A program made the translations under genes and the position numbers. This document shows, piece after piece, positions 1 to 19,643 of a stretch of DNA of 21,962 bases. The stretch lies in IMG/VR virus record IMGVR_UViG_3300047550_005050, positions 1-21,962 of that record. One strand, 5' to 3'. The notes beneath the pieces were generated by a model. That model did no database searches, was not told the origin of the DNA, and was given only the letters and a program-made list of their open reading frames with translations. This DNA is from a virus. The stretch's first letter is position 1. Each line of letters opens with the position of its first letter.

Positions 1-3000
1 CCATATAACCTACTTAACGATTATTCTTCATATCCATACTTACAATTACCAAACGATCTAGATCAAACACTGGAAGTAAAATATGCATCTCCAGGTAGAA
101 TTGAAAGTGTTGGAATTGTAACTGGAGGAACAAATTATAAAGTAAATGATAAAGTAGTTTTTGATGAAGAAGGAACTCGTGGATTTGGATTTACATCAAA
201 GGTTTCCAGAATTGGTGGAAAGAAAGTAAATTCAATTAGCGTTGCAACTTCTTCTCTTTATAATGCCGAAATTTATTCCTCAGAAGGAAATAAAAATGGA
301 TTCATCATTCAATCAGATTCTCCTCATAATTTTTTAAATAAGGATATTGTTGTAATTTCTGGATTGAATACATCCACATCTTTAATTGGTGGTTCATATG
401 ATATAGGTGTATTAAAAAATACTTTATCACTTTCTAATCCATCTGGAATATCATCAGACGGTGTTACTGGTATAGTTACCTTTATTTCGGTTTCAGGTAA
501 TCTAGATTACTCTACAATAAAAGAAAATGATGTATATTTGATTGGAAACGAAAGAATTAAGATTTTAAATATAGATAGAAATTCTTCAAGAATTAGGGTT
601 TTAAGATCTATTGATGGAACTGTTGGGTCTGCACATAGTTATACTGACATTCTATATGAGGATCCCAGAAGACTTTCCATAAAAGTGGGGAATACTACTT
701 CATATGGATATAAAGTAAATAAAGAAATTTACTTTGACCCTAAAGAATCTGTAGGATTGGGTACTATTTCGGGAGTTGGAATTGGAATAACAATTTCTTT
801 TGCAAATCCTGGTGTTGGAATAACACAGATCTTTATTCCAACAAGATCAATCTATATTCCAAATCATAATTTACAAACCGGAGATGTTTTAACATACTCT
901 ACAAATTCAGGATCTTCTATTTCAATTTCAAATGATGGAGTAACATCATCATCTCTTGCTGACCAATCTTTGGTTTATGTTGCTAAAATTACAAATGATT
1001 TAATTGGAATATCAACTGTAAAGGTTGGTCTTGGAACTACTGGAACTTTTGTTGGAGTTACTTCTGCAACATCTTCGATCAGCACTCTATACTTTACTGG
1101 AATAGGAACAGGTTTTTATCATAGCTTTAAGACCAACTATCCAAAATTAACAGGAAATATATCTAAAAATATAGTAACCGTATCGACAGCACAAACGCAC
1201 GGATTAACAAATAATGATTACGTTTTTGTAAGTATAAATCCGGGTATTTCAACTACCGTTGTTGTTAAGTATGATGATTATAACAGAAGAATTTTAATAA
1301 ATCCAAGAACATTTGTTTCAGGTGATATTGATATAAATGCAAATACAATAACGATTGTGAATCATAATTTTGAAAATGGTCAAGAAGTTGTTTATACTTC
1401 TGGATCTCCATCCGGTGGATTAGTGAATAATAAAATTTATTATATTGTAGTTTTTGATAAGAATACGGTTAAATTATCTGCTTCTTATTTTAGTGCAATA
1501 AGTTTAAGTCCAGATATAGTCAATATAACATCTGCTTCTAGTGGAACTTTGTCGCCAGTAAATCCACCAATCAAAACTTATAAAAATTCTACAGTAGTAT
1601 TTGATCTATCAGACTCCTCTTTATCATATATTAATGAATCGATTAGATATTCTGCATTCGAATTTAATTTATATACTGATCCAAATTACACTCAAATTTT
1701 TGACAAATCACCAAATAGTAAAACTTTTGAGGTTATAAAATCTGGTAGAGTTGGAATTGATTCTACGGCTAAAATTACATTAACCGTAAATGAAAATATT
1801 CCAGAAAAATTATTCTATAAGTTAGATCCTGTTTATGCAAGTACCCTACCATCAATAAAGGAGGAAGTGAGTGTAGACTCATCTGTTCTTGCAAATAACC
1901 AAGTTCAAGTTGTTTTTAGTGAATATAATGGAAAACATAGAGTAACTTCAACTTCTTCAACAACATTTACATATAATCTTGAAAGAGATCCAGAAGCATC
2001 ATCATATACTTCTTCATCAAAGTTTAATTATGAAACAACATCCTTATCTGCACTTGGACCAGTATCTAAAGTTGATATTACATCAAAAGGTCAACAATAC
2101 TCAAGTATTCCTAAGTTTTCCAATATAGTTTCTTCTAGTGGATCTGGTGCTATTTTAGAGGTATTCAGCAAATCTGTAGGAAATGTTCAAAAGACAAAAT
2201 TAAATAACATTGGATTTGATTTTTCTTGCGATTCTACGGTAAGACCAAATATAGCTCTTCCACAAATTTTAAAAATTGAACCACTCAATTCAATTGAGTC
2301 TATTGGAATTACTTCAACTGGAAGAGGTTATTCTACTGCACCAAAACTAATAGTTATAGATGGCAAAACAAAAGAAGTTTTACCTGAAGTAGATCTTCAA
2401 TATTCACTTGGAGACACTTATGTTACTATTTTGAAGAATACATATAGACTTAATGATATTGATCCTATTATCATTCCAACTCAAAATTCAAATGGGGTTG
2501 GAATAGCATCTATTACATATGATTCCGTAACAAAGGATGTAATTGTTGAATTGTCTGTTGGATTTAGTACTGCAAGTTCATTCCCATTCTCGGTTAATGA
2601 TAGAATTTTAATTGAGAATATTAGTATTGGTATTGGTTCTGACGCAAAAGGATTTAATTCCAGTGAGTATGATTATCAACTTTTCACAATTACTTCAATA
2701 GATCCAAATATCGGCGGAACTGGATCTGTTACCTATAATCTTGCAGAATTCTTAACTTCTGACGAAACTCCAGGAACTTATGATGATATTAATTCCTCCG
2801 GAAGAATTATACCAGAAAAATATTTCCCTAGATTCAACGTTACATTGAGTCCAAATAACTTCTTAGTAAATGAAGAGGTTAAGTATTCAAATCAATCAAC
2901 ACCTCTGGGAATTGCTGAAGATTGGGACGAAAAAACTAAGTATCTTAAGGTTTCTTCTAGAGAAGTTTTAATTGAAGGTAATATTATTGAAGGAGTTTCT

Positions 3001-6000
3001 TCAAAAACTCAAGGTAGAATTTCAACTACATTTGGATCTTATGGATTTATTAATCTTGCCCCATATTCTAAAGTAGAAGGTGGATGGACAACTGAAACCG
3101 GAATATTGAATAATGAATTGCAAAGAATTCAAGATAATTTCTATTATCAGAATTTCTCATATTCCCTAAAATCAAAAGTTCCCTACAGCACTTGGGAAAA
3201 TGCAGTTGGATCTTTAAATCATACGGCAGGATTTAAGAAATTCAGCGATTATCAATTAGAATCATTTGGTTATTCCGGAATCAGTACAGATGCGGTCTCT
3301 GTTTTAGATGCAACAGCAGATCTCTATGGATTTGCAAGTTTAAATTGTGTTTATGATTTTGATCTAGCTAAAGAAAATGCACTAGTAATTGGATCTAGTA
3401 CGTATTCCGATGAAATAACTTTTTCAAGTAGAGTACTTACTGATTATTTCGAATCTGTCGGAAACAGAGTACTGTTTATTGATGATATAAGTGGTCAATT
3501 TAATAGCAATCCAAGATCAACAAGATACTCTATAGTTCACAGATTCCCATTGACAGATGCTCGTGCCCAAAAATACATCGCTTATATAAGAGATCGGAGA
3601 TATTTTGCCCAAAGGCAAATGATGGTCTTCACCTTGCTTCACGATGATAGTATTGGTTATTTAAATCAATATGGTAGAGTTGAATCGGTTTATGACTTAG
3701 GATCTTTTGATTTTTCTATAGATGGAACTGATGGATTAATACTTTTCTATCCAGTAAACTATAGAGTAAATGATTATGATGTCACAACTCTTTCATATAA
3801 TTTAAAGGACAATCTTTCTGGTGTAGGAAGCACCACGTTGGGTAATATTGTAACTGTAAGTACCGATACTATTATCATTCCTCCATCGACGGCAACGCCA
3901 ATTATTAGTATTGGAACTACCTATACTTCATCTAAAGTTTTAGTTGAAGTTTCTACGGAAGATAAAAAGTATCAATATAATGAACTGACTTTAATTCATG
4001 ATGGAACAAATATAGAACTTTTAGAATATGGTCAATTAACTAATCATTCTGTAGATTCATATTCAAGTTCTGGTCTTGGTTCATATTTCCCATATTTCTC
4101 AGGATCAGAGTTAAAGGTTAATTTCATTCCTAATGTTGGAACAGCAGCATCTGTAAGTATTATTCAAGTTTCAATAGCAGATACAACAGTTTCCGGAATT
4201 GGAACGTTTGATCTCAGATATGCAAGATTTGAAGCCAGATCAACTTCTATCGCTTCTACTACATCTCCAACAGAAAATATAGTTGCCGAGTATCCAGATA
4301 ATTATGATGGGGGATATTATATTGTTCAAGTTTCCGATACAACAAACAATAGACATCAATTATCCGAAGTTGTTGTCTTAGATGATGAAAATAATGCATT
4401 TATTACAGAGTTTGGAAACGTCGAAACACATTCTGGTCTTGGAACTATTGGTGCATCAAAAACTGCAAATTCGACTAGACTAACGTTTACTCCTCTTCCA
4501 GATATTGACGTTCAAGTTAAAGTTTACTTCAATACTTTAACTAATTTCGATGAGACTAATGTAATAACACAATACAATAACAATACAGCGACTTCAGATT
4601 ATGGTACATATTATGGTACTGAAAGAGACGTAAAACTCTCATTTGAACTTAAGCATCAAGGATATCCAATTTTCAAAAGATATTTCAATGGAAGTGATTC
4701 AACAGTCGTAAGTATTGCTTCAAGTACAATTAGAATTCAAAATCATTTCTTTGTTACTGGAGAGAAAGTTACTTATTCTGCAGGCGAATCTACAGCAACT
4801 TCCTCACCTATTGGAATTACAACTACTGATTTTGGTGTGGGCATTGGCACTACAGATAAACTTCCATCGACAATTTATATTGTTAAAATTGATGAAAATA
4901 CAATTAAACTTGCAAAGAGTGCTGAGGATGCTCTAAAGACTGTTCCAGATGTAATTACGATGACCTCAGTTGGAATTGGAACTAGTCATTCACTGACTTC
5001 CTTCACTCAAAATGCAAAGGCACTTATTTGTATTGATAATGTAATACAATCTCCTGTAGTATCAACATCAACTACAACACAATTATCAGCAAATCTACTT
5101 TCCGTAGATGATCTATTATACTCAAATTCTACTCTGGACTTCTTTGCTGGAGACCTAATTCGTATTGATGATGAGATAATGAGAATAGAATCTGTTGGTG
5201 TTGGTAGCACTAATGCAATTCGTGTTCAAAGACCTTGGCTAGGAACTGAAATTACCAGTCATTCAATTGGTACTTCAGTTACAAAACTGAACGGAAACTA
5301 TAATATAATTGATAATACAATTACTTTTGTCGATGCACCTTATGGAAACACCCCAATTGGAACATCCACAAATCCACCAGATGAAAGAGATTGGGTCGGA
5401 ATTACTTCATCCTCTTCCTTCCATGGAAGAACTTTTATGAGATCTGGTGCGATAGATTCTTCAAATGAACCATATCATAAGAACTATGTTCTAGATGATA
5501 TTTCTTCAGAATTCAGTGGATCTCAAAATACATTTACACTGACTTCAAATAAATCAAACATTTCTGATATTTTTGAAGAGAATGCTATTATACTAGTTAA
5601 TGAAATATTCCAAGAGCCAGGATTAACAAACAATTATACTTTATCGGAATCAGTTGGAGTAACCTCAATTTCTTTTGTTGGATCTGCAACTTCACAACCT
5701 TCCGATATCAACTCATCAAATCTTCCCGCTGGAGGTATAATTGTCTCTGTTGGATCCACAGAAGGACTTGGATACCAACCTCTAATCTCTGCTGGAGGAA
5801 CTGCTATTGTATCTGCAGCGGGAACCATTTCTTCGATCAGTATTGGTAATAGTGGTTCTGGTTATAGATCTTCAATACAAACTTTAAGTGGAATTGCAAC
5901 TGTTATTGTTAGAGTTGGAGTTGCAACATCATCAACAGGAACTCCTAATATTGAATTCATAGGAACTGCTGCAGTTAGTAATGGTAATATTGTAAGTATT

Positions 6001-7854
6001 GCTATTACCAACCCTGGAGTTGGATACACATCATCTAATCCACCACAAGTAATTATTGATGCTCCACTATCATATTCAGACATTCCTCTCATTTATAGTT
6101 CATCTTCATCAGGTATAGGAACTCAAGCTACTGTAGATATCGTTGTTGGACAAGGATCCAGTGTAATTAATTTTGAAATTAAAAACACTGGATATGGATA
6201 TAAAGTTGGAGAAATTCTAACAATTCCAACAGGTGGTGCTACTGGAATTCCAACTACACCAAATTCAACATTGAGACAATTCCAAATCACTGTTGATATT
6301 GTGGATAGAGACAAGTTCTCTGGATGGACAATTGGTGAATTGGAAGTGTTTGATAATATTGAAAGACTTTTCGATGGAAAGAGAGTCATTTTCCCATTAT
6401 TATTGAATGGAACTCTCACTTCAGTATATGCTAAAAAAGGATCTCTTATTAAGATTCAAGATGTACTTCTAGTCTTTATAAATGATATTCTCCAAATTCC
6501 AGGAGAAGCATATATTTTCAATGGCGGAAGCAAGATAGAGTTTACCGAAGCACCGAAACCAGAGGATACTTGTAAGATCATATTCTATAAGGGAAGTGGT
6601 GAGGGTGTTGATGTTATATTCAGAGATGTTGTAGATACTGTGAAAAAAGGTGATGATTTACAATTAACTTACGATTCTTCTGTTGGTCAATCACCAACTC
6701 TGTTAGAAGATGAAAGAAAAGTGACCGATATTTTATCAATTGAAACTGTTGAAACTAATCCATATTTTGGACCAGGAAATACTTCAGATACAACTTTATC
6801 AAGACCAATAAATTGGTGCCGACAAACTGAGGATTTGATTATTAACGAAAATGATGTAACAAAGGATAGAGAGTTTTATGAGCCACATATCTTCCCAACA
6901 ACTTATCTAATTCAGTCTGTTGGAATTGGATCTACCGTCCTTTATGTTGAGAATTTAAGACCTCTATTCAATGCAACAAATGAAAACAGCGTTTCTTTAG
7001 ATTTCCAAAAGAATATTACATTCATTTCACAGGATTCTAAAGTTTCTGCGAGTGCAACTGCTGTTGTATCTGCAGCAGGAACAATAACATCTATTAGTAT
7101 TGTAAGTGGTGGATCTGGTTATGTTACTGCACCAAATGTGAGCATTCAAAATCCCGTAGGAGTAGGATCTACTACTTCCACGGCAGTATCCTCTATAACT
7201 TCTGGAATTGTTACATCTATTTCCTTAACGGGCATTGTTACTGGATATTCTCAAGATAATCCCCCAGTAGTTCTGATAGAACCCCCAATTATTCAAATTG
7301 AGAGTGATAAAGTTGTTTCTTATGAGGGTGATTTTGGAATAATTAGTGGAATATCCACAGTTTCTGTCGGTGTTGCTTCTACTGGATTAGTTTTTGACTT
7401 CTTTATTCCAAAGAATTCTCCTCTCAGAGAAGGATTGATAACTGGAATCACAACAGTAAGTGGTATACAAACTGGATATTATTTTGTAATTTCCAATTCT
7501 AATGTTGGGAATGGAGTAACATCTCTGAATAGTAATGGATCGATTGTTGGATCTGGAACAAGTTTCCTTGATGGAGTTTACAGAGTTGCTGCAGTTTCTA
7601 TAGCACAAACATCTACCGTTGGTTTTGGTGTTACATATGTTGCTAAAGTAACGGTTAGTGTTTCAAGTTATAATGGATTAACTGGAATTGGTTATAGCAA
7701 TTACTATGGTAACTTTAGCTGGGGAAGAATATTCCTCAGATCAAGATCACAAGTAGCACAATATAATGCATATACTAATGGCGGATACTCCGGAATTTCA
7801 ACTGGAACAATTATAACTAGAACTGCTCCACTAAAATACTCAAATTACCTTTAA
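1..7854 (+). CDS. Giant T4-like phage baseplate/tail structural protein, 5' partial
   Basis: The frame is open from base 1 with no stop before TAA at 7852, so the gene begins left of the window. The ATG at 364 is only an internal methionine. At least 2617 residues are visible. I infer a virion protein of the baseplate periphery: it sits immediately before gp8, where T4 carries gp7 (about 1030 aa), but I cannot show homology to gp7. The protein is Gly/Ser/Thr/Ile-rich and beta-like, with no membrane segment or signal peptide. Visible pieces, numbered from base 1: repeated NHxFxxGxxVxY units (near residues 109, 289, 455, 1582), about eight GY-type repeats, a conserved-looking block near 1040-1090 (HTAGFKKFSDYQLES), another near 1177-1226 (HRFPLTDARAQKYIAYIRDR), a PWLGTEITSH module near 1745, and the C-terminal segment with WGRIFLRSR and RTAPLKYSNYL. 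The C-terminal segment resembles large structural proteins of cyanomyoviruses as I recall them. The virion role is fairly secure; the exact position is not. Confidence 0.75.
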   Translation, partial: PYNLLNDYSSYPYLQLPNDLDQTLEVKYASPGRIESVGIVTGGTNYKVNDKVVFDEEGTRGFGFTSKVSRIGGKKVNSISVATSSLYNAEIYSSEGNKNGFIIQSDSPHNFLNKDIVVISGLNTSTSLIGGSYDIGVLKNTLSLSNPSGISSDGVTGIVTFISVSGNLDYSTIKENDVYLIGNERIKILNIDRNSSRIRVLRSIDGTVGSAHSYTDILYEDPRRLSIKVGNTTSYGYKVNKEIYFDPKESVGLGTISGVGIGITISFANPGVGITQIFIPTRSIYIPNHNLQTGDVLTYSTNSGSSISISNDGVTSSSLADQSLVYVAKITNDLIGISTVKVGLGTTGTFVGVTSATSSISTLYFTGIGTGFYHSFKTNYPKLTGNISKNIVTVSTAQTHGLTNNDYVFVSINPGISTTVVVKYDDYNRRILINPRTFVSGDIDINANTITIVNHNFENGQEVVYTSGSPSGGLVNNKIYYIVVFDKNTVKLSASYFSAISLSPDIVNITSASSGTLSPVNPPIKTYKNSTVVFDLSDSSLSYINESIRYSAFEFNLYTDPNYTQIFDKSPNSKTFEVIKSGRVGIDSTAKITLTVNENIPEKLFYKLDPVYASTLPSIKEEVSVDSSVLANNQVQVVFSEYNGKHRVTSTSSTTFTYNLERDPEASSYTSSSKFNYETTSLSALGPVSKVDITSKGQQYSSIPKFSNIVSSSGSGAILEVFSKSVGNVQKTKLNNIGFDFSCDSTVRPNIALPQILKIEPLNSIESIGITSTGRGYSTAPKLIVIDGKTKEVLPEVDLQYSLGDTYVTILKNTYRLNDIDPIIIPTQNSNGVGIASITYDSVTKDVIVELSVGFSTASSFPFSVNDRILIENISIGIGSDAKGFNSSEYDYQLFTITSIDPNIGGTGSVTYNLAEFLTSDETPGTYDDINSSGRIIPEKYFPRFNVTLSPNNFLVNEEVKYSNQSTPLGIAEDWDEKTKYLKVSSREVLIEGNIIEGVSSKTQGRISTTFGSYGFINLAPYSKVEGGWTTETGILNNELQRIQDNFYYQNFSYSLKSKVPYSTWENAVGSLNHTAGFKKFSDYQLESFGYSGISTDAVSVLDATADLYGFASLNCVYDFDLAKENALVIGSSTYSDEITFSSRVLTDYFESVGNRVLFIDDISGQFNSNPRSTRYSIVHRFPLTDARAQKYIAYIRDRRYFAQRQMMVFTLLHDDSIGYLNQYGRVESVYDLGSFDFSIDGTDGLILFYPVNYRVNDYDVTTLSYNLKDNLSGVGSTTLGNIVTVSTDTIIIPPSTATPIISIGTTYTSSKVLVEVSTEDKKYQYNELTLIHDGTNIELLEYGQLTNHSVDSYSSSGLGSYFPYFSGSELKVNFIPNVGTAASVSIIQVSIADTTVSGIGTFDLRYARFEARSTSIASTTSPTENIVAEYPDNYDGGYYIVQVSDTTNNRHQLSEVVVLDDENNAFITEFGNVETHSGLGTIGASKTANSTRLTFTPLPDIDVQVKVYFNTLTNFDETNVITQYNNNTATSDYGTYYGTERDVKLSFELKHQGYPIFKRYFNGSDSTVVSIASSTIRIQNHFFVTGEKVTYSAGESTATSSPIGITTTDFGVGIGTTDKLPSTIYIVKIDENTIKLAKSAEDALKTVPDVITMTSVGIGTSHSLTSFTQNAKALICIDNVIQSPVVSTSTTTQLSANLLSVDDLLYSNSTLDFFAGDLIRIDDEIMRIESVGVGSTNAIRVQRPWLGTEITSHSIGTSVTKLNGNYNIIDNTITFVDAPYGNTPIGTSTNPPDERDWVGITSSSSFHGRTFMRSGAIDSSNEPYHKNYVLDDISSEFSGSQNTFTLTSNKSNISDIFEENAIILVNEIFQEPGLTNNYTLSESVGVTSISFVGSATSQPSDINSSNLPAGGIIVSVGSTEGLGYQPLISAGGTAIVSAAGTISSISIGNSGSGYRSSIQTLSGIATVIVRVGVATSSTGTPNIEFIGTAAVSNGNIVSIAITNPGVGYTSSNPPQVIIDAPLSYSDIPLIYSSSSSGIGTQATVDIVVGQGSSVINFEIKNTGYGYKVGEILTIPTGGATGIPTTPNSTLRQFQITVDIVDRDKFSGWTIGELEVFDNIERLFDGKRVIFPLLLNGTLTSVYAKKGSLIKIQDVLLVFINDILQIPGEAYIFNGGSKIEFTEAPKPEDTCKIIFYKGSGEGVDVIFRDVVDTVKKGDDLQLTYDSSVGQSPTLLEDERKVTDILSIETVETNPYFGPGNTSDTTLSRPINWCRQTEDLIINENDVTKDREFYEPHIFPTTYLIQSVGIGSTVLYVENLRPLFNATNENSVSLDFQKNITFISQDSKVSASATAVVSAAGTITSISIVSGGSGYVTAPNVSIQNPVGVGSTTSTAVSSITSGIVTSISLTGIVTGYSQDNPPVVLIEPPIIQIESDKVVSYEGDFGIISGISTVSVGVASTGLVFDFFIPKNSPLREGLITGITTVSGIQTGYYFVISNSNVGNGVTSLNSNGSIVGSGTSFLDGVYRVAAVSIAQTSTVGFGVTYVAKVTVSVSSYNGLTGIGYSNYYGNFSWGRIFLRSRSQVAQYNAYTNGGYSGISTGTIITRTAPLKYSNYL
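5836..6230 (+). repeat. GY-type protein repeats in giant structural protein, first cluster
   Basis: The translation carries three successive units of the form I-x-I-x-N-x-G-x-GY: SISIGNSGSGY (from about 5836), SIAITNPGVGYTSSNPPQVII (from about 5995) and FEIKNTGYGYKVGEILTIP (from about 6172). The first is preceded by an Ala/Gly-rich strand, AIVSAAGTIS. Earlier, more diverged copies lie near 100-210, 2068-2166 and 2299-2362. They look like short beta-hairpin or beta-prism units. The fold is inferred. Confidence 0.7.
7045..7290 (+). repeat. GY-type protein repeats in giant structural protein, second cluster
   Basis: Two further units are encoded here: TSISIVSGGSGYVTAPNVSI and TSISLTGIVTGYSQDNPP. 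The strand before the first reads SASATAVVSAAGTITSI and is almost the same as SAAATAVVSAAGTITQI in the neck protein gp14 (19236-19286). In these 17 codons there are 2 amino-acid differences and 9 synonymous differences, so this is a conserved protein module and not a recent DNA copy. Confidence 0.7.
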
Positions 7855-7860: not shown

Positions 7861-7877
7861 GATAAAAAACTCTCCAA

Positions 7878-9431: not shown

Positions 9432-9437
9432 AGAATT

Positions 9438-12400
9438 ATGTCTCAAGTAACAAACCTCAATGTATCGCCATATTTTGACGATTTTGATGCAAATAATGAC
9501 TATTATAAAGTTCTCTTTAAGCCAGGGTATCCAATTCAGGCAAGAGAATTAACAACTCTACAAAGTATTCTGCAAAATCAGGTTGAAAAGTTTGGTCAGC
9601 ATTTCTTTAAGGAAGGCGCAAAAGTTATTCCTGGTAATACAACATATAATCAATTTTATTATGCAGTAGAATTAAATAATACTTATCTGGGTGTTCCTGT
9701 AGATTCTTATGCTGAACAATTAATAGGTTCAAAAATTACAGGTCAAACTTCTGGAATTACTGCAGTAGTAGAAAAGGTATTATTATCAAGCGATTCTGAA
9801 AGAGGAAATACTACTTTATATGTAAATTACTTGGGATCTAGTACTCAAAATAATTCAACTGTACAATTTTTAGATGGTGAGAATCTTTCTTCAAATATTA
9901 CTATAACCTCAGGACTATTAGGAAATACAACAATTTCTGCAGGAACTCCTTTTGCAATTACAGGTGCAAGTAACGCAACTTCTGTAGGATCTGCATTTTC
10001 TATTGCTGAGGGTGTTTACTTCATAAGAGGATATTTTGTAACTGTAAATTCCGAAACTCTTATTCTTGATCAATATACAAACACACCGAACTACAGGGTT
10101 GGTTTGTTTGTAAATGAAGAGATTGTTAATTCAGACATTGATGAGGCATTAAATGATAATTCACAGGGATTTAATAACTATGCTGCTCCAGGAGCAGATA
10201 GATTAAAAATTTCAGTATCTTTGTTTAAGAAAGATTTAACTGATTTTAACGATAATAATTTTGTTGAACTTGCTACAATTGTTGATGGCGTAATAAAAAC
10301 CAACAGAGTAGCTAAAGAATATAATATTATACAAGATGAACTTGCCAGAAGAACGTATGCAGAATCTGGTGATTATTATGTAATTCCTTTTGATTTAAGT
10401 ATTAAAGAATCTCTAAATGATGGTTTAGGAAATAGAGGTATATTTAACGAAGGACAATTTACATATGGTGGATCAACTCCATCAGAAAATTTAGCAATAT
10501 ATCAAATTTCTCCAGGTAAAGCATTCGTAAGAGGTTATGAAGTAGAAACTACTTCATCAACATTTTTAGATTCCGAAAAACCAAGAACTACTTCTACTCT
10601 TAACGACCTTTCAATCAATTATAATACAGGATCAACTCTAACATTGAATAGAGTTTTTGGTTCTCCTACGATTGGTATCGGAAATACTTATGTTTTAAGT
10701 CTAAGAGATTCTAGAGTTGGATCTGCATCTACCACACCATCAGGAAAAGAAATTGGTGTTGCTAGAGTTTATGACTTTAGATTAGAATCTGGATCATATG
10801 ATACTGCTAATGCAAACATAAATCAATGGAATATTTCTCTATATGATGTTCAAACTACAACAGAAATAACTTTAAATGAACCAGTTACTCTTTCTGTTCC
10901 AACGTTTATTAAGGGAAAGAGTAGTGGTGCTACTGCATTCTTAAAAGATGCGGTCACTAACAGTGCATCAATTACCGTCTATCAGAAAAATGGAGACTTC
11001 ATTGCGAATGAGTCTTTTATAATTGACGGTATTGGAAATAATAGAGTAGCAACAGCAATTACTTCATATGGTATTTCCGATGTTAAGTCTGTTTATGGTA
11101 TTGTAGGGTCAGCAAAAACTTTTAATGCTGATACCATTCAATCAGATTTCTTTACAGTAGGTATTGCTACTATTAGTGCTTCTAGTGGTGGCATTAGCAC
11201 TATAACTAGCACTAATGAGAACTTCCCGGGAACAATAGTTAAAGTTGGCAATTTAGTTAAGTTCAGTAATAATTCATCTCTACCAGTTTATGGTAGTGTA
11301 GTAAGCGTAGGAAAAACAACAGTATCAATTGCAGGTCTAACAACAGTAACTGGTGTAAATCAAGGTGGATTACCAGCATCTACTATAAGTGTCTCGGATC
11401 TAAAGATCTTAGGAACAAGATTAGTAAAATCAAGTGACGATACTTTATACACTGTTCTACCAAGACCTAATGTATCATCGGTAGATTTGACTAATGCATC
11501 TCTTACGATTAGAAAGACTTTTAATGTAACGATCTCTGGTAATCAATTATCTACACCAGTTACTGCCGGAGAAAATGAAACATTTTTACCCTTTGATGAG
11601 GAAAGATATTCCCTAATTAGGTCAGATGGAAGCACGGAAGTTCTTACCTCAGATAAATTTGATTTTATTAATGGGTCAACACAAATTCAAATTTATAATC
11701 TAGGTGCGAATGATACTGCAACTTTAGTTGCAAGTTTAAGAAAGATTAAACCGAAATCAAAAATTAAGTTTAAAAATAGAGTATCAACACTAATTATTGA
11801 TAGATCAAAGTATGAATCATCTGGTATTGGTGCTACAACACTAAATGATGGATTAATTTATGGCAATTATCCATACGGAACAAGAGTTCAGGACGAAAAC
11901 TTATCACTAAATGTTCCCGATATTATTAATGTTTACGGTGTTTATGAGTCAAAGACAACTTCAGACCCATCAGCACCCACTCTTGTACTTTCATCCATAA
12001 ACGGACCAACAACAAAAACTACAGATTTAATTGTTGGTGAGCAGTTTATTGGACAAATAAGTGGTGCTATCGGTGTATATGCAGAAAGACTAACTGATTC
12101 TCAAGTCTCTTTCATTCCATTAAATGAAAATATTTTTAAAGAAGGAGAGTCTATTACTTTCTCAGAATCAAATATTTCTGCCGTAATAACAACAATAGAT
12201 TCCCCAAGTTTAAATATTTCATCAAACTTTAAGTTTGATAATGGGCAGAAAGGATCTTTCTATGGTTATGGTGCAATTAATAGAACTCCAGGGTCGCCAG
12301 AACCTACCAAAAAAATAAAAGTATATTTTGCAAATGGTTACTATCAAGGTTCTGATAATGGAGATATCACTACAATAGAATCTTATCGTGGTTTTGATTA

Positions 12401-15400
12401 TAGAAAGGATATTCAAGTAGTAAATTCAGTAAGAAATTCTGATATAATTGATATTAGACCAAGAGTTTCTTCTTATACTTTAACGGAAAACTCAAGATCT
12501 CCTCTGGAATTCTACGGAAGACTTTTCAATGGATCTGGAAATTCGGCAGCAAATATTTTAGCATCTGACGAATCAATTATAACCACATTCTCATATTATC
12601 TTGGTAGAATTGATAGGGTTTATCTTCGCAAAGATGGAACATTCCAAGTTAAGTATGGTGTTCCTTCAGAAAAGCCAGAAAAACCAGTTTCTGTCGATGA
12701 TGCATTAGAAATTGCAACTGTAACTCTTCCACCATATCTCTTTGATATATCTCAAGCTTCTGTTCAATTCCTTGAGCATAAGAGATATAGAATGGTTGAT
12801 ATCAAGCAACTTGAAAATAGACTCAAAAATCTAGAGTATTATACTTCATTATCAATGCTTGAATCAAATACTGCAAATCTGTTTGTTCCTGATACAAATG
12901 GAATAGATAGATTTAAGTCTGGATTTTTTGTAGATAATTTTAGTACTTTAGATTCTCAAGAAAACGGTATACCTTTTGAAAATAGTATTGATCCCAAAAA
13001 CAAAGAACTTAGACCAAAACATTACACAACTGCTATAGATCTAATTGCAGGTCCAGTAGAAGGAGTCTCTGCAACAACAGATAGATTCTTTGAGCAACCC
13101 GAAGGAAACAATATTAGAAAAACTGGAGATTTGATCACTCTAGATTATGCTGAAGTTGAATGGTTGAAGCAATCATTTGCAACAAGAACTGAAAATGTAA
13201 CTCCATTTGTTATTAGTTTCTGGCAGGGAACTATTGAATTGTTTCCTTCTTCTGATACTTGGGTTGATACAGTCAGATTAGATGCAAAAGTCATCAATCA
13301 GGAAGGAAATTATGCCCAGACAATGGCTCTTGCACAAAATCAATTTAATGTAGACCCACAAACAGGTTATGCACCTACGGTTTGGGGTGCTTGGGAAACT
13401 AATTGGACCGGCAAAGAAGTAATTGAAACCGTAGATGTTAGAACAAATACTACTTATAAATCATTTCACGGTAAATATTGGTGGGGATGGCCATATGGTC
13501 GATATAGTTACTGGGGTTACTGGGGTTACTGGGGGAGAAAAAGAGGATATTCAACAACTGAAGTAATCCAAGACACTTATAGAGAAACTAAAGAAACCGG
13601 AGTTGAAACTAGAACTGGAACTACAACTTTAGTTACTGAACAATTCGATAAAACTTCATTGGGAGATAGAACTGTAAGTAGAGAATTAATTCAGTATCTG
13701 AGATCTAGAAACATTCAATTCTCTGCTAAGAACGTCAAACCATTAACTCAACTTTATGCATTCTTTGATGGTGTCGATGTAACTAAGTATTGTGTTCCAA
13801 AACTACTGGAGATTAGTATGATCTCCGGAGTATTTGAGGTAGGAGAAACTGTTGTTGGATCTATTCGTAAGACAGAACTTTCCACATCCACAATTGAAGA
13901 AAGTGAATCAAATATTACGTTTAGAGTTTCTCAATCAAATCACAAGGAAGGACCTTATAATACACCAACTGAAACATATTCATTAAATCCATATACAAGT
14001 CAACCTCTAGCAGCAACATATTCTTCTACTAGCAACCTACTGAACATTGATATACTATCATTATCAACACATTCTCAAGGAGAATATAGTGGATGGGTTC
14101 AATCTGGTATGACTTTGGTTGGAAAAACAAGTGGAGCTCAGGCAACTATTACGAATGTAAGACTACTTTCGGATGTATATGCCTCCTTAATTGGTAGTTT
14201 CTATATTCCCAATCCAAATATATCAGTCAATCCAAGATTTGAAAACGGTTCTAAAACTTTTACCTTGATTAATAACACTATCAATGATAGAAATCTTGCT
14301 TCTACAGTTGCCGAAGAGAAATTTATCTCAAGTGGATTTGTAGAAACTGTTCAAGAAAATATCATTTCTACAAGAAACGCCAGAATAGAACAAAAGCAAG
14401 AACTACAAACTGAAAATGTATCCAGAACAACAGGAACACAGTTAGTAAGTAGTAATGTTGTTTCTAAGACTACAAACTGGTATAAGTGTCCTTGGTGGGA
14501 TCCTCTTGCCCAATCTTTCTTAGTGACGGAGGAGAGTGGTATCTTCCTCACAAAATGTGATATATTCTTCAAAACTAAAGATGATGCGGATGTTCCCGTA
14601 TTGTTCCAAATCAGAACAATACAAAATGGATATCCAACACAAACAGTTATTCCATTCTCAGAAATTATACTAAATCCAAATCAGGTCAATACTTCGAATG
14701 ATGGATCAGTTGCAACTTCATTTACCTTCAAGTCTCCAGTTTATTTGGAAGGCGGAAAGGAATATGCAATAGTTGTTGGTTCAAATTCCAACAAATACAA
14801 CGTCTTTATTTCTAGAGTAGGTGAAGTTGATTTACTGACCCAATCATATATTTCAAATCAACCATATCTTGGTTCACTATTTAAGTCTCAAAATGCTTCA
14901 ACTTGGGAAGCAAGTCAGTGGGAAGATCTTAAATTTACTCTTTACAGAGCTGATTTCTTAAGTTCTGGTAGTGTTGAATTCTATAGTCCAGAATTAACTC
15001 CAGGAAACTCTCAAGTTCCAACTTTATTACCAAATTCACTGAATTTAAATTCAAGAAGAATTAGAGTTGGATTATCAAGTGCAGTTTCTGATAGTGGTTT
15101 AACTCTAGGTAATACTATTCTTCAACAGGAAACAAATGCTACCGGAAATTATGTCGGTAACGCAGGTATCGCCACAGGCACACTTCAGGTTATTAATTCT
15201 GGTATTGGATATACGCCAGCATCTGGAAGTCTAACATTTAATGGCGTAAACTTAGTAACAATCACTGGAAATGGTAGAAATGCAGCAGCAGATATTACTG
15301 TTTCTAATGGTGTTGCAATAGCTGCTACTATTGTCGTATCTGGTAATGGTTATCAAGTTGGCGATGTACTTGGAATTTCGACTCTTGGATCAGTACCATC

Positions 15401-16961
15401 TGGTAGAGATGCTCTGTTCTCTCTGGTTTCAATTGCAAGCACAAATGAACTTATTCTTGATAATGTTCAGGGAGAATTCTCTATAGCTGGTGCCGGAAAG
15501 ACAGTACAATATGTTAATAATTCCGGTTTAACAACAACATTAAATTCTTCATCTGGAGGAAATGTGCAGATTTCCGATATTAATGTTGAGAGTGATGGAC
15601 TGCACATTGTAGTAAATCACAAAAACCACGGAATGTATTTCAATGATAATTATGTGAGAATTTCTGGAGTTGAATCTGACGTTCCATCAACAAAACTATC
15701 TTCCACATATACTGGAGGATCTATTCTAATTAACAATACATCGAACTTTACTTCATTTGAGAATGTGGGAGTTGGAACTACAAATCCAGGATATGCATTA
15801 ATTGGAAAAGAACTATTTGAATACACTGCAGTGAGTGCAAACTCTTTAGACAATGTAACTAGATTGGGATATATTGAGCCAGTATTCTCAGATCTAGTGT
15901 CTGCAATGTCTTTACCTGAATATTCAACTAATACACCAGTTTATAAGTATGAGTTGGGTGGAGTTTCTCTGAGAAGAATTAACACGACACATTATCTCTC
16001 AAATGTAAGCGTTCAAGATCCAATTACATTTGATTCCTACAATATTAAGGTTCAAATGGATTCAAATGGAATAGATAGAACTAATGGATCCAGTTTCCCC
16101 AAACTATATGTTAATCAAACAAAGTTCACTGGAGGATTCAACATAAAGGCAACTCAAAATATTCCGTTTGAACTCATTACTCCTTCCGTCCAGAACATTA
16201 CCGTACAAGGAACAACAATTAACGCCGAAATTAGAACAATCACTGGATCTAGCATTAGTGGTCAAGAAATCCCATTTGTCGATAGTGGATTCGAATCAAT
16301 TACATTAAATAAGACTAATTATTTTGCAAATCCAAGAATAATTGCATCTAAGATAAATGAAGATGAAAAACTAACAACGATTAAGGGTAAGAAATCTATG
16401 AATTTGAGACTATTCTTAAATTCTGTAGATTCTAGAGTAAGTCCTGTTATTGATACTCAAAGAATTAGTGCAATTTTAACATCCAATAGAGTTAATAAAG
16501 TAATTGATAATTATGCTACTGATAATAGAGTTAATTCTATAGGAACAGATCCTTCATCTTTCCAGTATATTTCAAAAGAAATTAACTTGGAAAATCCAGC
16601 AACATCTATTAAAATTCTACTAGATGCTCATATTAATAATTACTGTGATATAAGAGCATTCTATTCAATTGGAGAAAATCCAAACTTTATTCCTATTTTC
16701 ACTCCTTTCCCAGGATATAATAATCTTGATTCCAGAAATCAAATTATAAGTTTTGAAAATAGTGATGGATTACCTGACGTTTTCGTTCAACCATCACTTT
16801 CATTTGGTTTTGATTCCGGAAACATTGAATTTAGAGAATATAGTTTTACTGCCGATCAACTTCCTTCATTCAGATCATATAGAATTAAATTAGTTCTAAC
16901 ATCTACAAATCAAGTTTATCCACCAAGAGTTAAAAATCTAAGAGTAATTGCGCTTGCATAA
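9438..16961 (+). CDS. Giant DUF4815-type virion structural protein
   Basis: This 2507-aa protein begins SPYFDDFDANNDYYKVLFKP, then QARELTTLQSILQNQ and KFGQHFFKEG, which I recognise as the start of DUF4815 phage proteins found after gp8 in marine T4-like phages. It occupies the interval where T4 has genes 9-12 and wac, so a role in the baseplate periphery, adsorption apparatus or fibre attachment is likely but inferred. A predicted helical stretch near residues 1110-1150 (QLENRLKNLEYYTSLSMLES) is followed by RFKSGFFVDNF. Residues 1347-1366 are an extreme Trp/Tyr/Gly patch. A C-terminal block opens with WWDPLAQSFLV near 1685 and continues through ITKCD-like and TWEASQWEDLKFTLYRADF segments to about 1840. 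Two GY repeats lie near 1915-1980. The end, YPPRVKNLRVIALA, looks conserved. Start chosen because it lies 6 bases after the gp8 stop; only a weak AAAGAA precedes it. Confidence 0.85.
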   Translation: MSQVTNLNVSPYFDDFDANNDYYKVLFKPGYPIQARELTTLQSILQNQVEKFGQHFFKEGAKVIPGNTTYNQFYYAVELNNTYLGVPVDSYAEQLIGSKITGQTSGITAVVEKVLLSSDSERGNTTLYVNYLGSSTQNNSTVQFLDGENLSSNITITSGLLGNTTISAGTPFAITGASNATSVGSAFSIAEGVYFIRGYFVTVNSETLILDQYTNTPNYRVGLFVNEEIVNSDIDEALNDNSQGFNNYAAPGADRLKISVSLFKKDLTDFNDNNFVELATIVDGVIKTNRVAKEYNIIQDELARRTYAESGDYYVIPFDLSIKESLNDGLGNRGIFNEGQFTYGGSTPSENLAIYQISPGKAFVRGYEVETTSSTFLDSEKPRTTSTLNDLSINYNTGSTLTLNRVFGSPTIGIGNTYVLSLRDSRVGSASTTPSGKEIGVARVYDFRLESGSYDTANANINQWNISLYDVQTTTEITLNEPVTLSVPTFIKGKSSGATAFLKDAVTNSASITVYQKNGDFIANESFIIDGIGNNRVATAITSYGISDVKSVYGIVGSAKTFNADTIQSDFFTVGIATISASSGGISTITSTNENFPGTIVKVGNLVKFSNNSSLPVYGSVVSVGKTTVSIAGLTTVTGVNQGGLPASTISVSDLKILGTRLVKSSDDTLYTVLPRPNVSSVDLTNASLTIRKTFNVTISGNQLSTPVTAGENETFLPFDEERYSLIRSDGSTEVLTSDKFDFINGSTQIQIYNLGANDTATLVASLRKIKPKSKIKFKNRVSTLIIDRSKYESSGIGATTLNDGLIYGNYPYGTRVQDENLSLNVPDIINVYGVYESKTTSDPSAPTLVLSSINGPTTKTTDLIVGEQFIGQISGAIGVYAERLTDSQVSFIPLNENIFKEGESITFSESNISAVITTIDSPSLNISSNFKFDNGQKGSFYGYGAINRTPGSPEPTKKIKVYFANGYYQGSDNGDITTIESYRGFDYRKDIQVVNSVRNSDIIDIRPRVSSYTLTENSRSPLEFYGRLFNGSGNSAANILASDESIITTFSYYLGRIDRVYLRKDGTFQVKYGVPSEKPEKPVSVDDALEIATVTLPPYLFDISQASVQFLEHKRYRMVDIKQLENRLKNLEYYTSLSMLESNTANLFVPDTNGIDRFKSGFFVDNFSTLDSQENGIPFENSIDPKNKELRPKHYTTAIDLIAGPVEGVSATTDRFFEQPEGNNIRKTGDLITLDYAEVEWLKQSFATRTENVTPFVISFWQGTIELFPSSDTWVDTVRLDAKVINQEGNYAQTMALAQNQFNVDPQTGYAPTVWGAWETNWTGKEVIETVDVRTNTTYKSFHGKYWWGWPYGRYSYWGYWGYWGRKRGYSTTEVIQDTYRETKETGVETRTGTTTLVTEQFDKTSLGDRTVSRELIQYLRSRNIQFSAKNVKPLTQLYAFFDGVDVTKYCVPKLLEISMISGVFEVGETVVGSIRKTELSTSTIEESESNITFRVSQSNHKEGPYNTPTETYSLNPYTSQPLAATYSSTSNLLNIDILSLSTHSQGEYSGWVQSGMTLVGKTSGAQATITNVRLLSDVYASLIGSFYIPNPNISVNPRFENGSKTFTLINNTINDRNLASTVAEEKFISSGFVETVQENIISTRNARIEQKQELQTENVSRTTGTQLVSSNVVSKTTNWYKCPWWDPLAQSFLVTEESGIFLTKCDIFFKTKDDADVPVLFQIRTIQNGYPTQTVIPFSEIILNPNQVNTSNDGSVATSFTFKSPVYLEGGKEYAIVVGSNSNKYNVFISRVGEVDLLTQSYISNQPYLGSLFKSQNASTWEASQWEDLKFTLYRADFLSSGSVEFYSPELTPGNSQVPTLLPNSLNLNSRRIRVGLSSAVSDSGLTLGNTILQQETNATGNYVGNAGIATGTLQVINSGIGYTPASGSLTFNGVNLVTITGNGRNAAADITVSNGVAIAATIVVSGNGYQVGDVLGISTLGSVPSGRDALFSLVSIASTNELILDNVQGEFSIAGAGKTVQYVNNSGLTTTLNSSSGGNVQISDINVESDGLHIVVNHKNHGMYFNDNYVRISGVESDVPSTKLSSTYTGGSILINNTSNFTSFENVGVGTTNPGYALIGKELFEYTAVSANSLDNVTRLGYIEPVFSDLVSAMSLPEYSTNTPVYKYELGGVSLRRINTTHYLSNVSVQDPITFDSYNIKVQMDSNGIDRTNGSSFPKLYVNQTKFTGGFNIKATQNIPFELITPSVQNITVQGTTINAEIRTITGSSISGQEIPFVDSGFESITLNKTNYFANPRIIASKINEDEKLTTIKGKKSMNLRLFLNSVDSRVSPVIDTQRISAILTSNRVNKVIDNYATDNRVNSIGTDPSSFQYISKEINLENPATSIKILLDAHINNYCDIRAFYSIGENPNFIPIFTPFPGYNNLDSRNQIISFENSDGLPDVFVQPSLSFGFDSGNIEFREYSFTADQLPSFRSYRIKLVLTSTNQVYPPRVKNLRVIALA
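13508..13534 (+). repeat. 9-bp tandem repeat encoding YWG units
   Basis: GTTACTGGG occurs three times head to tail without mismatch. Its frame reads (S/G)-Y-W, so the protein runs YSYWGYWGYWGR. The length is a multiple of three, so copy number could change by slippage without breaking the frame. Confidence 0.9.
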
Positions 16962-16966
16962 TTAGA

Positions 16967-17191
16967 ATGGATTATTTAAAAGTTGAAGGGCATAATGATC
17001 TCTTAAGAGATCCAAATACAAATTCTATTATTAATACAAATATGTCCGAATATAAGCAATATATTGCAAGACGCAATATGAAAAGTGAAGAGAATCAGAA
17101 GTTAGAAAATTTAGAGTCTGATGTGAATAACATTAAAAATGACTTGGACGAAATCAAATCATTACTTAGGAGTTTAGTCAATGGATCCTGA
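16967..17191 (+). CDS. Small coiled-coil protein, function unknown
   Basis: A 74-aa acidic and basic protein. The second half (about residues 36-72) has regularly spaced hydrophobic residues, LENLESDVNNIKNDLDEIKS then LLRSL, which is a short coiled coil by eye. The first half includes DLLRDPNTNSIINTN and a YKQYIARR helix. It starts 5 bases after the DUF4815 stop with no good ribosome binding site, so translation is probably coupled to that gene. I do not recognise a named family. Its position between baseplate and neck genes suggests a minor virion or assembly factor, which is inference only. Confidence 0.8.
   Translation: MDYLKVEGHNDLLRDPNTNSIINTNMSEYKQYIARRNMKSEENQKLENLESDVNNIKNDLDEIKSLLRSLVNGS
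17168..17172 (+). promoter_or_regulatory. Strong ribosome binding site inside the upstream gene
   Basis: AGGAG lies 8 bases before the ATG at 17181 and within the last codons of the 74-aa gene. It is the best Shine-Dalgarno match in the window and decides the start of the following 59-aa gene. Confidence 0.75.
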
Positions 17192-17360
17192 TAAAATAGA
17201 ACTTGAAAATTTAAGCAAAAGTTTTGAATATTTCAAGGGTGCTTCTGAAATTGATAATATAACGGACATAGATGAGGCTAAAAAAGTTGCAAAATGTTAT
17301 TTTAAATTATATCTCAAGCAACAAGAAGTTGTTGCACAGTTAATGACTGCATCAACATAA
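17181..17360 (+). CDS. Small overlapping gene, 59 aa, function unknown
   Basis: The frame starts at ATG 17181, overlaps the 74-aa gene by 11 bases in another frame, and ends at TAA 17358. The product begins MDPDKIELENLSKSFEYFKG and ends in a Lys/Gln-rich helix (YFKLYLKQQEVVAQLMT); it is predicted all-helical and has one Cys (residue 39). Support for a real gene: an AGGAG ribosome binding site at ideal spacing, exact filling of the gap up to the gp13 promoter, and codon use like its neighbours. I do not recognise a family. It may act with the coiled-coil protein encoded just before it, since the overlap favours coupled synthesis. Confidence 0.8.
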   Translation: MDPDKIELENLSKSFEYFKGASEIDNITDIDEAKKVAKCYFKLYLKQQEVVAQLMTAST

Positions 17361-17363
17361 ATA
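17356..17363 (+). promoter_or_regulatory. Putative late promoter for gp13-gp14
   Basis: CATAAATA matches the T4-type late core. The TAA in its middle is the stop codon of the 59-aa gene. It lies 21 bases before the gp13 ATG, and an AGGA ribosome binding site follows at 17372-17375. Confidence 0.65.
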
Positions 17364-17384
17364 TTTTTAATAGGAAATAGATAA

Positions 17385-18233
17385 ATGGCGCAACCATCTA
17401 CTAGACAAGAACTAATAGATTATTGTAAAAGAAAGCTGGGGGCGCCAGTTTTAGAAATTAACGTTGCCGATGAGCAAATTGAAGATCTTGTTGATGACGC
17501 TATTCAGTTTTTTCAAGAGAGACATTTTGATGGCGTATATCCGACTTTTTATAAGTATAAAGTAACTAAGGAAGATATTGATAGAGGAAGATCGAAAGGA
17601 TTAAGTCCAAATAGTGTTGGAATTGTAACAACCTCAGTAACTACAAATATAGTAGGGACTGCAACTACTTTTAATTATTTTGAAAATAGTAATTACCTCC
17701 AAGTTCCACCAAATATTATTGGAGTAAATAAAATTTTTACTTTTGATGGTGCAAATACAATCACTCATAATATGTTTAGTGTTAAGTATCAATTGTTTTT
17801 GAACGATATTTACTACTGGGGAAGCACCGAACTATTAAGTTATGCGATGGTTAAGACATATCTAGAAGATTTAGATTTTCTCTTAAATACGCAGAAACAA
17901 ATAAGATTTAATAAAAGACAGGATAGATTGTATCTTGATATAGATTGGGGATCGGTAACTGATAATCAATATTTTATTATCGACTGCTATTCGACACTTG
18001 ATCCAAATGATTATTCAAGAGTTTGGAACGACTCATTCATAAAACCATACTTAACTTCATTGATTAAGAAGCAATGGGGGCAAAATATGATGAAATTTAC
18101 TGGAGTTAAACTCCCAGGAGGAGTTGAATTAAATGGTAGACAAATGTATGATGATGCCCAAAGAGAGATAGACATTTTAATGGAAAAAATGTCTAATACT
18201 TATGAACTTCCACCTTTCGATATGATAGGTTAA
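17385..18233 (+). CDS. 13: Neck protein gp13 (head completion)
   Basis: In T4, gp13 and gp14 form the neck that closes the packaged head and offers the docking site for the tail. This 282-aa protein is near the T4 size (309 aa). It opens with RQELIDYCKRKLGAPVLEIN, followed by an acidic helix, QIEDLVDDAIQFFQERHFDG, which is the most recognisable gp13 segment. Further on it has NDIYYWGSTELLSYAMVKTY, an aromatic DRLYLDIDWG strand and the LIKKQWGQNMMKFTGVKLPGG region, ending in ELPPFDMIG. The start has an AGGA ribosome binding site 9 bases upstream. The gp14 start is 3 bases after its stop, as expected for partners made in fixed ratio. Confidence 0.92.
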   Translation: MAQPSTRQELIDYCKRKLGAPVLEINVADEQIEDLVDDAIQFFQERHFDGVYPTFYKYKVTKEDIDRGRSKGLSPNSVGIVTTSVTTNIVGTATTFNYFENSNYLQVPPNIIGVNKIFTFDGANTITHNMFSVKYQLFLNDIYYWGSTELLSYAMVKTYLEDLDFLLNTQKQIRFNKRQDRLYLDIDWGSVTDNQYFIIDCYSTLDPNDYSRVWNDSFIKPYLTSLIKKQWGQNMMKFTGVKLPGGVELNGRQMYDDAQREIDILMEKMSNTYELPPFDMIG

Positions 18234-18236
18234 TTT

Positions 18237-19643
18237 ATGTTAAATCCATTCTTTCTTCAGGGATCAAGATCAGAACAAGGTCTAATTCAAGATCTTATCA
18301 ATGAACAATTGAGAATGTATGGGGTTGAAGTTTATTATCTACCAAGAAAGTATATTACTGAGAAAACTGTAATAAAAGAATTAATAGAATCTCAATTTAC
18401 AAATGCTTATCCAATAGAGGCATATATTGATACTTATGAAGGATATGGAGATAATCCAACTATATTATCAAAATTTGGTATTCAAGCACTCAATGAAATA
18501 AATCTTATAATATCAAGAGAAAGATTTAAAACTTATATTTCTCCACTTATAAACAATCAACCAAATATTAAACTATCTTCAAGACCAAAGGAAGGAGATT
18601 TAGTATATTTTCCTTTAGGAGATCGTTTATTTGAAATAAAATATGTTGAGCACGAAAAACCGTTTTATCAACTACAAGGATTATATACCTATGAGCTAAG
18701 ATGTGAACTCTTTAGATATGAAGATGAAGTTATTGATACTGGTATAGAAGATATTGATGATAATATAAGCGGAAGTGGTGGAACTGATTCGGTTCCGGTT
18801 GGAAATATACAAAAACTTACTATGGTTGGAGTTGGAATAACAGCAAGTGCAATTACTGGAATTGTAAATGGTGGTATTAGATTCATAACCATTACAAATA
18901 GAGGTGGTGGTTATACAAGCACTCCAACTGTTGGTATTTCTTCTGCTCCATCTGGAGGAAAGACTGCAACTGCTGTTGCAAAAATGATTGGTGGAATAGT
19001 CGTATGTAATGATAACACAAATCCAGCAGCACAATCAGTTCAGAATGTAGAAATAATAAATCCTGGATATGGTTATACAGTTACTCCCGGAGTTAGATTT
19101 ATTGGAGGTGGTGGTAATGGAGCGACTGCAACTGCAACTCTTGGTGACGGAATTGTTGGAATAATTACTGTTACAAATTCAGGATCTGGATACGTAACTC
19201 CTCCTCAAATTACATTTACTGGAATTTCTAGTGTCTCCGCCGCTGCTACTGCAGTAGTTTCTGCGGCAGGAACAATCACTCAAATTAGAATTACAAACGC
19301 TGGTCTTGGATACACTACAACTCCAACGATTACAATTGCAAGTCCATCCATAGTTTCTTCCGGAACTTTTACTTTCAACGAAATTGTTGTTGGATCGCAA
19401 AGTGGAGTAAGTGCAAGAGTAAGATCTTGGAATGCATCTACTAATATTCTTGAGGTATCAAATGTTAATGGACAATTTATTCCAGGAGAAGATATAGTAG
19501 GAGCTGCATCCAGTGCTTCGTATCGTCTAAGAGCAATTGATACATTTGTGGTGAAGGACGGATTTGCTAATAATGATGAAATTGAAGAAGAAGCAAATGA
19601 TATCATTGACTTCAGTGAAATAAATCCTTTCGGAACACCATAA
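18237..19643 (+). CDS. 14: Neck protein gp14 with large repeat insertion
   Basis: Partner of gp13 in the neck. The first 180 residues (MLNPFFLQGSRSEQ, VYYLPRKYITE, GDLVYFPLGDRLFEIKYVEH, FYQLQGLYTYELRCELFRYE) are the gp14 core, and the last 17 (NDIIDFSEINPFGTP region) are its usual ending. At 468 aa it is much longer than T4 gp14 (256 aa). The extra residues, about 190-440, lie between core and ending: four GY-type repeats (about 213-370), then a GQSGV-type unit, NEIVVGSQSGVSARV to FIPGEDIVGAASSA. The insertion has the same repeat type as the giant protein, gp8 and the DUF4815 protein. The start follows gp13 by 3 bases with only a weak AGG upstream, so coupling is likely. Confidence 0.9.
   Translation: MLNPFFLQGSRSEQGLIQDLINEQLRMYGVEVYYLPRKYITEKTVIKELIESQFTNAYPIEAYIDTYEGYGDNPTILSKFGIQALNEINLIISRERFKTYISPLINNQPNIKLSSRPKEGDLVYFPLGDRLFEIKYVEHEKPFYQLQGLYTYELRCELFRYEDEVIDTGIEDIDDNISGSGGTDSVPVGNIQKLTMVGVGITASAITGIVNGGIRFITITNRGGGYTSTPTVGISSAPSGGKTATAVAKMIGGIVVCNDNTNPAAQSVQNVEIINPGYGYTVTPGVRFIGGGGNGATATATLGDGIVGIITVTNSGSGYVTPPQITFTGISSVSAAATAVVSAAGTITQIRITNAGLGYTTTPTITIASPSIVSSGTFTFNEIVVGSQSGVSARVRSWNASTNILEVSNVNGQFIPGEDIVGAASSASYRLRAIDTFVVKDGFANNDEIEEEANDIIDFSEINPFGTP
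18874..19347 (+). repeat. Four GY-type repeats inside gp14
   Basis: Translated units: FITITNRGGGYTSTPTVGI, NVEIINPGYGYTVTPGVRFI, IITVTNSGSGYVTPPQITF and QIRITNAGLGYTTTPTITI. Spacing is about 37 to 54 residues, and Ala/Gly/Thr-rich strands (TATAVA, GATATATLGDG, SAAATAVVSAAGT) separate them. This is the most regular array of the motif in the window. Confidence 0.85.

Follow-up and report, generated by a model that had tools for sequence, protein, structure and literature searches.

Portable surface domains in phage particles are so far known mainly as immunoglobulin (Ig)-like domains. These beta domains (Big_1, Big_2, I-set and FN3) are inserted in or appended to virion proteins of five classes, occur in the tail tube, baseplate, fibre and capsid, and project outward from the outer surface (PMC9022992, PMC8718954). 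Their presence is variable, the cores of the proteins that carry them fold without them, they are often dispensable for assembly, and they are thought to aid adsorption (PMC9022992, PMC8718954). A different repeat, here termed the GY unit, is carried by virion proteins encoded in IMGVR_UViG_3300047550_005050, a viral metagenome fragment of 21,962 bases that was analysed over its whole length (the window). The fragment belongs to a T4-like cyanomyovirus, an ocean virus infecting cyanobacteria, and the proteins in question are the baseplate wedge proteins gp7 and gp8, a DUF4815 protein and the neck protein gp14. By analogy, phage Ig-like domains are the nearest precedent for the GY unit. The favoured reading, with a probability of about 0.6, is that the unit is an accessory module, portable and exposed on the outer face of the particle, which resembles phage Ig-like domains but forms a separate, unnamed family.

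The likeness to Ig-like domains is one of use and not of membership. GY units are found in neck, baseplate wedge, DUF4815, sheath and tail-tube proteins as tandem units of 38-42 residues, whereas an Ig-like domain is single and has roughly 90 residues. Unit-bearing fragments have no match up to E=1 to the Pfam models for Ig, Big or FN3, so the GY unit behaves like Ig-like domains but appears to stand outside that family. Tandem repeats of secreted bacterial proteins (L343 and L344, described below) are by profile the same unit, with the same period and the invariant G-x-G-Y...P; they differ in having many more and more regular copies and in being attached to enzymes, and they are unnamed in Pfam and NCBIfam. 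The cores of T4 gp14 and gp8 are homologous to those of the window's proteins and align over the cores only, while gp7 is linked by PHROG and cyanophage annotation. The PHROG families that contain the unit are clusters of whole proteins, and the shared unit itself is neither described nor named there.

The GY unit in four virion proteins

A GY unit is made up of a strand I-x-I-T-N, a loop G-x-G-Y-x3-P, a strand V-x-[IF], a Gly-rich loop and a strand ATATA, over about 38-42 residues. Column conservation is 100% for G, 99% for Y and 76-98% for P; Gly, Tyr, Pro and aliphatics in alternation make up the conserved columns, and none of these residues looks catalytic. The first-pass annotation of the window had counted about 16 copies of the pattern I-x-[IV]-x-N-x-G-x-GY-x3-P-x-[VI]. 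Taken literally, this pattern matches only three times, all in gp14, but a profile of 14 units finds 15 places. Two of these are in gp8 (one weak), two in the DUF4815 protein and four in gp14, as had been proposed, and gp7 has seven and not about eight. Since the 14-unit profile was trained on these very units, it counts them and is no test of sharing. The G-x-G-[YF] core occurs 9 times in gp7, 4 in gp8, 2 in the DUF4815 protein and 4 in gp14 against shuffle means of 1.6, 0.3, 1.2 and 0.5, respectively, and is thus not clearly above chance in the DUF4815 protein.

Independent profiles bear on whether the unit is shared. A profile built solely from gp14-family units reaches gp7 (9e-5 and 1.5e-4) and gp8 (3e-3). 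With a profile of 26 bacterial units, E-values are 4e-13 to 1e-7 for the four units of gp14, about 3e-7 for two of those in gp7 and 3e-4 for gp8, and gp14, gp7 and gp8 all score above the best of 306 shuffled or reversed sequences (3.1 bits). In profile-profile comparison by hhalign, a two-unit profile from bacterial proteins matches gp14 at 99.2%, gp7 at 96.3% and 98.7%, gp8 at 95.0% and the DUF4815 protein at 94.8%, while 14 of 14 control regions, most of them Gly/Ser/Thr-rich stretches from the same proteins, stay at or below 0.5%. Among the window families, most pairs of repeat regions score 93-98% and control regions at most 0.3%; low scores are given by gp7 residues 640-840, by gp8 against gp14 and by gp8 against gp7 2320-2450, and the DUF4815 protein against gp7 2320-2450 gives 71%. 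In a separate run two pairs exceeded 4%, both with gp7 2320-2450: region c5 (83%), which adjoins gp7 2320-2450 and has 11 residues in common with it, and region c1 (27%). Both c5 and c1 score at most 0.5% against the bacterial profile. These sequence comparisons confirm the repeat as real, not a product of chance, and as common to gp7, gp8, the DUF4815 protein and gp14, so that the first-pass proposal of one module in proteins with unrelated cores is upheld.

All features described here lie on the plus strand. In gp7, units are located at 2056-2178 (weak; 14-unit profile, its region reaching only 33% against the bacterial unit profile), 2287-2406 (hidden Markov model (HMM) trained on gp14, E=6e-4; 14-unit profile), 5821-5964 (with an insertion after GY; 14-unit profile and predicted fold), 5983-6147 (gp14-trained HMM E=1.5e-4; bacterial-unit HMM E=4e-7), 6160-6261 (a GYKVGEIL variant; 14-unit profile and hhalign of gp7 1890-2110 with gp8 and the DUF4815 protein) and 7078-7197 (with SASATAVVSAAGTIT, 7045-7095, in front; gp14-trained HMM E=9e-5; bacterial-unit HMM E=2.5e-7; hhalign 98% with gp14), followed by a degenerate VTGY unit at 7204-7287 (14-unit profile, E=1e-5). 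The gp8 unit at 8631-8747, found by the 14-unit, gp14-trained and bacterial-unit profiles and by profile-profile comparison, lies in a stretch without a T4 gp8 counterpart and has a weak partial unit ahead of it at 8502-8543. The DUF4815 protein has units at 15177-15299 (14-unit profile E=4e-6; profile-profile 94.8%) and 15309-15428 (a GYQVGDVL variant; 14-unit profile; hhalign 98% with gp7, 96% with gp14 and 94% with gp8). The four gp14 units, at 18870-18992, 19032-19145, 19149-19265 and 19269-19391, are each found by the 14-unit and bacterial-unit profiles; they start at residues 212, 266, 305 and 345, one spacing being longer (54), and the final strand of the fourth runs into a further beta segment. 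The units fall outside the T4-conserved cores, beyond residue 177 in gp14 and within residues 195-483 in gp8: T4 gp14 chains (PDB 9mkb) cover only residues 2-172 of the window's gp14, and the T4 gp8 alignment is limited to both ends of the window's gp8 (residues 3-194 and 484-517).

The first-pass annotation had singled out one pair of segments, 7045-7095 and 19236-19286, with 15 of 17 residues the same and 9 synonymous codon changes. These figures hold, with 2 non-synonymous changes in addition and 37 of 51 bases identical; the pair is the third strand plus linker and lies outside the GY motif. The score of the window's own gp7-gp14 pair is 124, which 8% of the gp14 units of other phages equal or beat (36% and 17% in the same comparison for two further phages). 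Orthologues average 164 and are more alike than paralogues, and within-phage pairs are not clearly closer than between-phage pairs. These scores show no sign that gp7 and gp14 recently exchanged sequence or underwent gene conversion, and this possibility was rejected. Judged from sequence, the pair is an old duplication preserved at the protein level, in agreement with the original proposal.

Past the last GY unit, gp14 residues 374-437 (window 19356-19547) form a second conserved beta segment, FNEIVVGSQSGVSARVRSW...FIPGEDIVGAAS. The segment is within the confidently predicted region discussed below, and matches to PHROG 4406 and 32294 span it together with the units; its single-sequence similarity to the DUF4815 protein is faint (E 0.03) and insufficient to call it shared. 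A possible extra, divergent GY-type unit, GGTNYKVNDKVVF, lies in gp7 at residues 32-56 (window 94-168; 13 bits with an iterated profile). A PliI match in gp8 (6e-5, below its cut-off) was set aside; it covers a part beyond the unit.

Distribution, natural insertions and predicted fold

The sharing of the unit had been regarded as unusual, but it is not peculiar to this phage. The unit occurs across Kyanoviridae and is present in a dozen or more PHROG virion families (among them 701, 708, 719, 4406, 5342, 19630, 22827, 30655, 32294 and 1922), and unit-bearing fragments match virion families annotated as connector, baseplate wedge, tail fibre, hub and head. Among eight cyanophages, the number of gp14 units is 4 in the window and in S-SM2, 3-4 in P-SSM2, about 2 in ACG-2014f and S-H9-2, and 1 or 2, depending on profile and cut-off, in S-RIM2 and S-RIM8. 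None was found in gp14 of P-RSM6, though its gp7-region protein has units. The stretches of coliphage teqhad (T4-type, 40-kb structural region) and Vibrio phage K352 have no unit.

A scan of bacterial and archaeal genomes gave 59 loci. In a Dehalococcoidia protein (L343), the unit is repeated about 38 times at intervals of 38-42 residues beside a multicopper-oxidase-like region; this protein and a Chitinophaga protein (L344) exemplify the tandem GSGYTSAPTV-type repeats of secreted bacterial proteins. Among other bacterial carriers are a GH64 glucanase that has a dockerin and a protein combining laminin-G with PA14 domains. Pfam and NCBIfam hold no model for the unit. No paper naming the repeat was found in a search that went without most subscription journals, and an earlier description may exist.

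Two clean inserts found in nature show that the module is portable. One is in the tail sheath protein of a Roseibium prophage (phrog_23, 2e-91): residues 5-137 and 301-533 of this protein align with the pyocin sheath 3j9q, and the 163 residues separating the aligned parts, compared with 3 in pyocin, hold four units. The other is in the tail-tube protein of a Pseudomonas putida prophage (phrog_158, 3e-22), where the alignment with PDB 25vd covers 1-99 and 189-234 and the 89 residues between the aligned parts (5 in 25vd) hold two units. Both genes sit in phage clusters that also encode tape measure, portal or capsid proteins. Because sheath and tube proteins pack tightly on their inner faces, the inserts would have to point outward.

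The module is predicted to be a beta fold. The gp14 repeat region (residues 191-437; 18807-19547), modelled by AlphaFold2 from an alignment of 90 sequences, is all beta with three strands per unit, and its predicted local distance difference test score is about 85-94 for the greater part of the region. The AlphaFold2 model of gp7 1886-2115 has a pattern like that of gp14, with high confidence in the centre. In a search of viral predicted structures, the gp7 model retrieves the S-RIM32 neck protein with a probability of 0.99, and the gp14 model retrieves the same protein plus many entries also retrieved by the gp7 model. The models support a shared predicted fold for the gp7 and gp14 repeat regions, in line with the first-pass proposal of one module. 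In a Foldseek search of the PDB with the full-length gp14 model, the only matches at E<=0.001 were cores of T4-type neck proteins, and the best 50 included no Ig protein. Sequence searches of the PDB, using the unit profile and one bacterial carrier, gave no match.

Possible roles of the GY unit

By analogy with Ig-like domains, the most likely role of the GY unit is that of an accessory surface module. Virion proteins would carry the units as inserts in, or extensions to, their assembly cores, and the module would lie on the outer face of the particle, decorating the neck (gp14), the baseplate wedge (gp7 and gp8) and the DUF4815 protein. Like Ig-like domains, the units would be dispensable for the core fold, vary in number and be displayed in many copies. 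They probably contact the host envelope or its sugars weakly, or bulk and stabilise the outer surface. Surface decoration had been among the roles first suggested, and it is favoured by the clean inserts in sheath and tail-tube proteins of unrelated prophages. Several points weigh against this view. Exposure on the particle and the contact role are inferred, the sheath and tube examples belong to other phages, and the gp14 model has a predicted template modelling score of 0.52, too low to predict the placing of the repeat relative to the core. Any ligand binding is putative, and the invariant Tyr could be buried. The weakest cases of the module are the DUF4815 protein and gp7 residues 640-840. 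The former is matched only at chance level by the profile trained on the gp14 family, so that its membership rests on the profile-profile evidence, and the latter, with only 33% against the bacterial two-unit profile, is the lowest-scoring region.

The units may instead reinforce the structure, clamping neighbouring subunits in a ring or wedge and serving stability and not outside contacts. Such a clamp is possible, if rather unlikely: the inserted beta-sandwich (domain 2) of the YSD1 tail-tube protein folds onto the adjacent subunit (PMC8718954), and the gp14 repeat region has many near-invariant positions over 90 homologues, but the variation in gp14 copy number from 4 to 0 among related phages and the presence of the unit in unrelated secreted enzymes argue against a specific interface. 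Sugar binding, likewise among the roles first suggested, is a further function that the units may have. That they are carbohydrate-binding modules proper, each unit or pair of units binding a host-envelope glycan, is suggested by carriers such as the GH64 glucanase with dockerin and the laminin-G and PA14 protein, and an invariant Tyr in repeated copies would fit avidity. This explanation is nevertheless unlikely, as no Pfam or NCBIfam carbohydrate-binding model matches the units, conservation is limited to Gly, Tyr, Pro and aliphatics, and the multicopper-oxidase-like carriers do not point to sugars.

Docking was also proposed at first, the unit joining gp7, gp8, the DUF4815 protein and gp14 within the particle, all four of which carry units in this one phage. 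In a T4-like tail the neck is at one end and the baseplate at the other, and the unit serves in secreted bacterial enzymes as well as in sheath and tail tube, so docking is highly improbable. In addition, within-phage pairs are no closer than between-phage pairs, so that no co-evolution is seen, and P-RSM6 has units in its gp7-region protein with none found in gp14. Very little likelihood is likewise left for the view that there is no common module and that Gly/Ser/Thr-rich beta sequence has converged. The strict motif does match just 3 times, and in single-sequence searches the DUF4815 units and some of those in gp7 score no better than chance, but the profile-profile scores of 95-99% contrast with those of the controls, and the bacterial tandem copies keep their fixed period.

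If the GY unit is indeed a portable accessory module, a second module unrelated to Ig-like domains would explain segments common to otherwise unrelated PHROG families and, in part, the large size of structural proteins in cyanophages. A wider claim, which is tentative and somewhat short of even odds, is that the unit represents an unnamed repeat superfamily, possibly with a fold new to the PDB, which serves tailed phages on neck, baseplate, sheath and tail tube as a second general display module alongside Ig-like domains, and which they share with the secreted proteins of bacteria. The unit offers a defined target: it is a small domain open to structural and binding tests away from the phage, and the insertion points are places where deletion should leave assembly intact.

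Genes of the window

The structural genes of the window are in the order gp7, gp8, DUF4815/VrlC-like, gp13, gp14, gp15 and gp16, the same as in Synechococcus phage S-SM2, and the nearest isolates judged by gp14 are S-SM2 (66.5%) and Bellamy (59%). The first gene (1-7851; stop codon 7852-7854) encodes 2617 residues in the window, its N-terminal side being cut by the window start. The first-pass annotation had taken its product for a giant peripheral protein; it is the gp7 homologue, the baseplate wedge initiator, as indicated by its match to the phrog_2885 baseplate wedge subunit (E=0), its location upstream of gp8 in the S-SM2 gene order and the 52% identity of residues 1901-2617 to the "baseplate wedge initiator" of Synechococcus phage Bellamy. 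The baseplate wedge homologue gp8 (7878-9428; phrog_438, 1.2e-169; Pfam Phage-Gp8, 4.2e-17) is followed by the DUF4815/VrlC-like virion protein of 2507 residues (9438-16958; Pfam DUF4815, 5e-54; phrog_358), a solved relative of which is 9euf ORF65 (1152 residues). The neck protein gp13 (17385-18230; phrog_211, 3e-48) contains no motif and is a negative neighbour without a GY unit. The neck protein gp14 (18237-19640) has a T4-like core at residues 1-177 (Pfam T4_neck-protein, 1.2e-29 over 2-177), after which comes the repeat region.

The size of gp7 differs widely. T4-type gp7 has about 1030 residues, compared with at least 2617 in the window (1-7851, partial), 4156 in S-SM2 (L241:13546-26016) and 5195 in P-SSM2 (L242:5-15592). 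A stretch V-x-R-x3-GT-x-ITSH-x2-G-x2-V is common to gp7 residues 1738-1760 (5212-5280) and gp15 residues 287-309 (20546-20614), with 48% identity over 23 residues (E 0.04), and is possibly another small shared module. The roughly 420 bases between the DUF4815 gene and gp13 (16962-17384) contain no open reading frame of at least 80 residues; S-SM2 has genes of 61-130 residues there. Very large extra structural proteins (about 1800-3500 residues) are encoded between the DUF4815 region and gp13 in several cyanophages (L333, L332, L331), and GY units are also present inside those of S-H9-2 and S-RIM2. The bin of Euryarchaeota archaeon TMED129 includes a contig with a gene for cyanophage-type gp14 (L338:4368-5816; phrog_460, 1e-124); this contig is therefore probably viral and wrongly binned.

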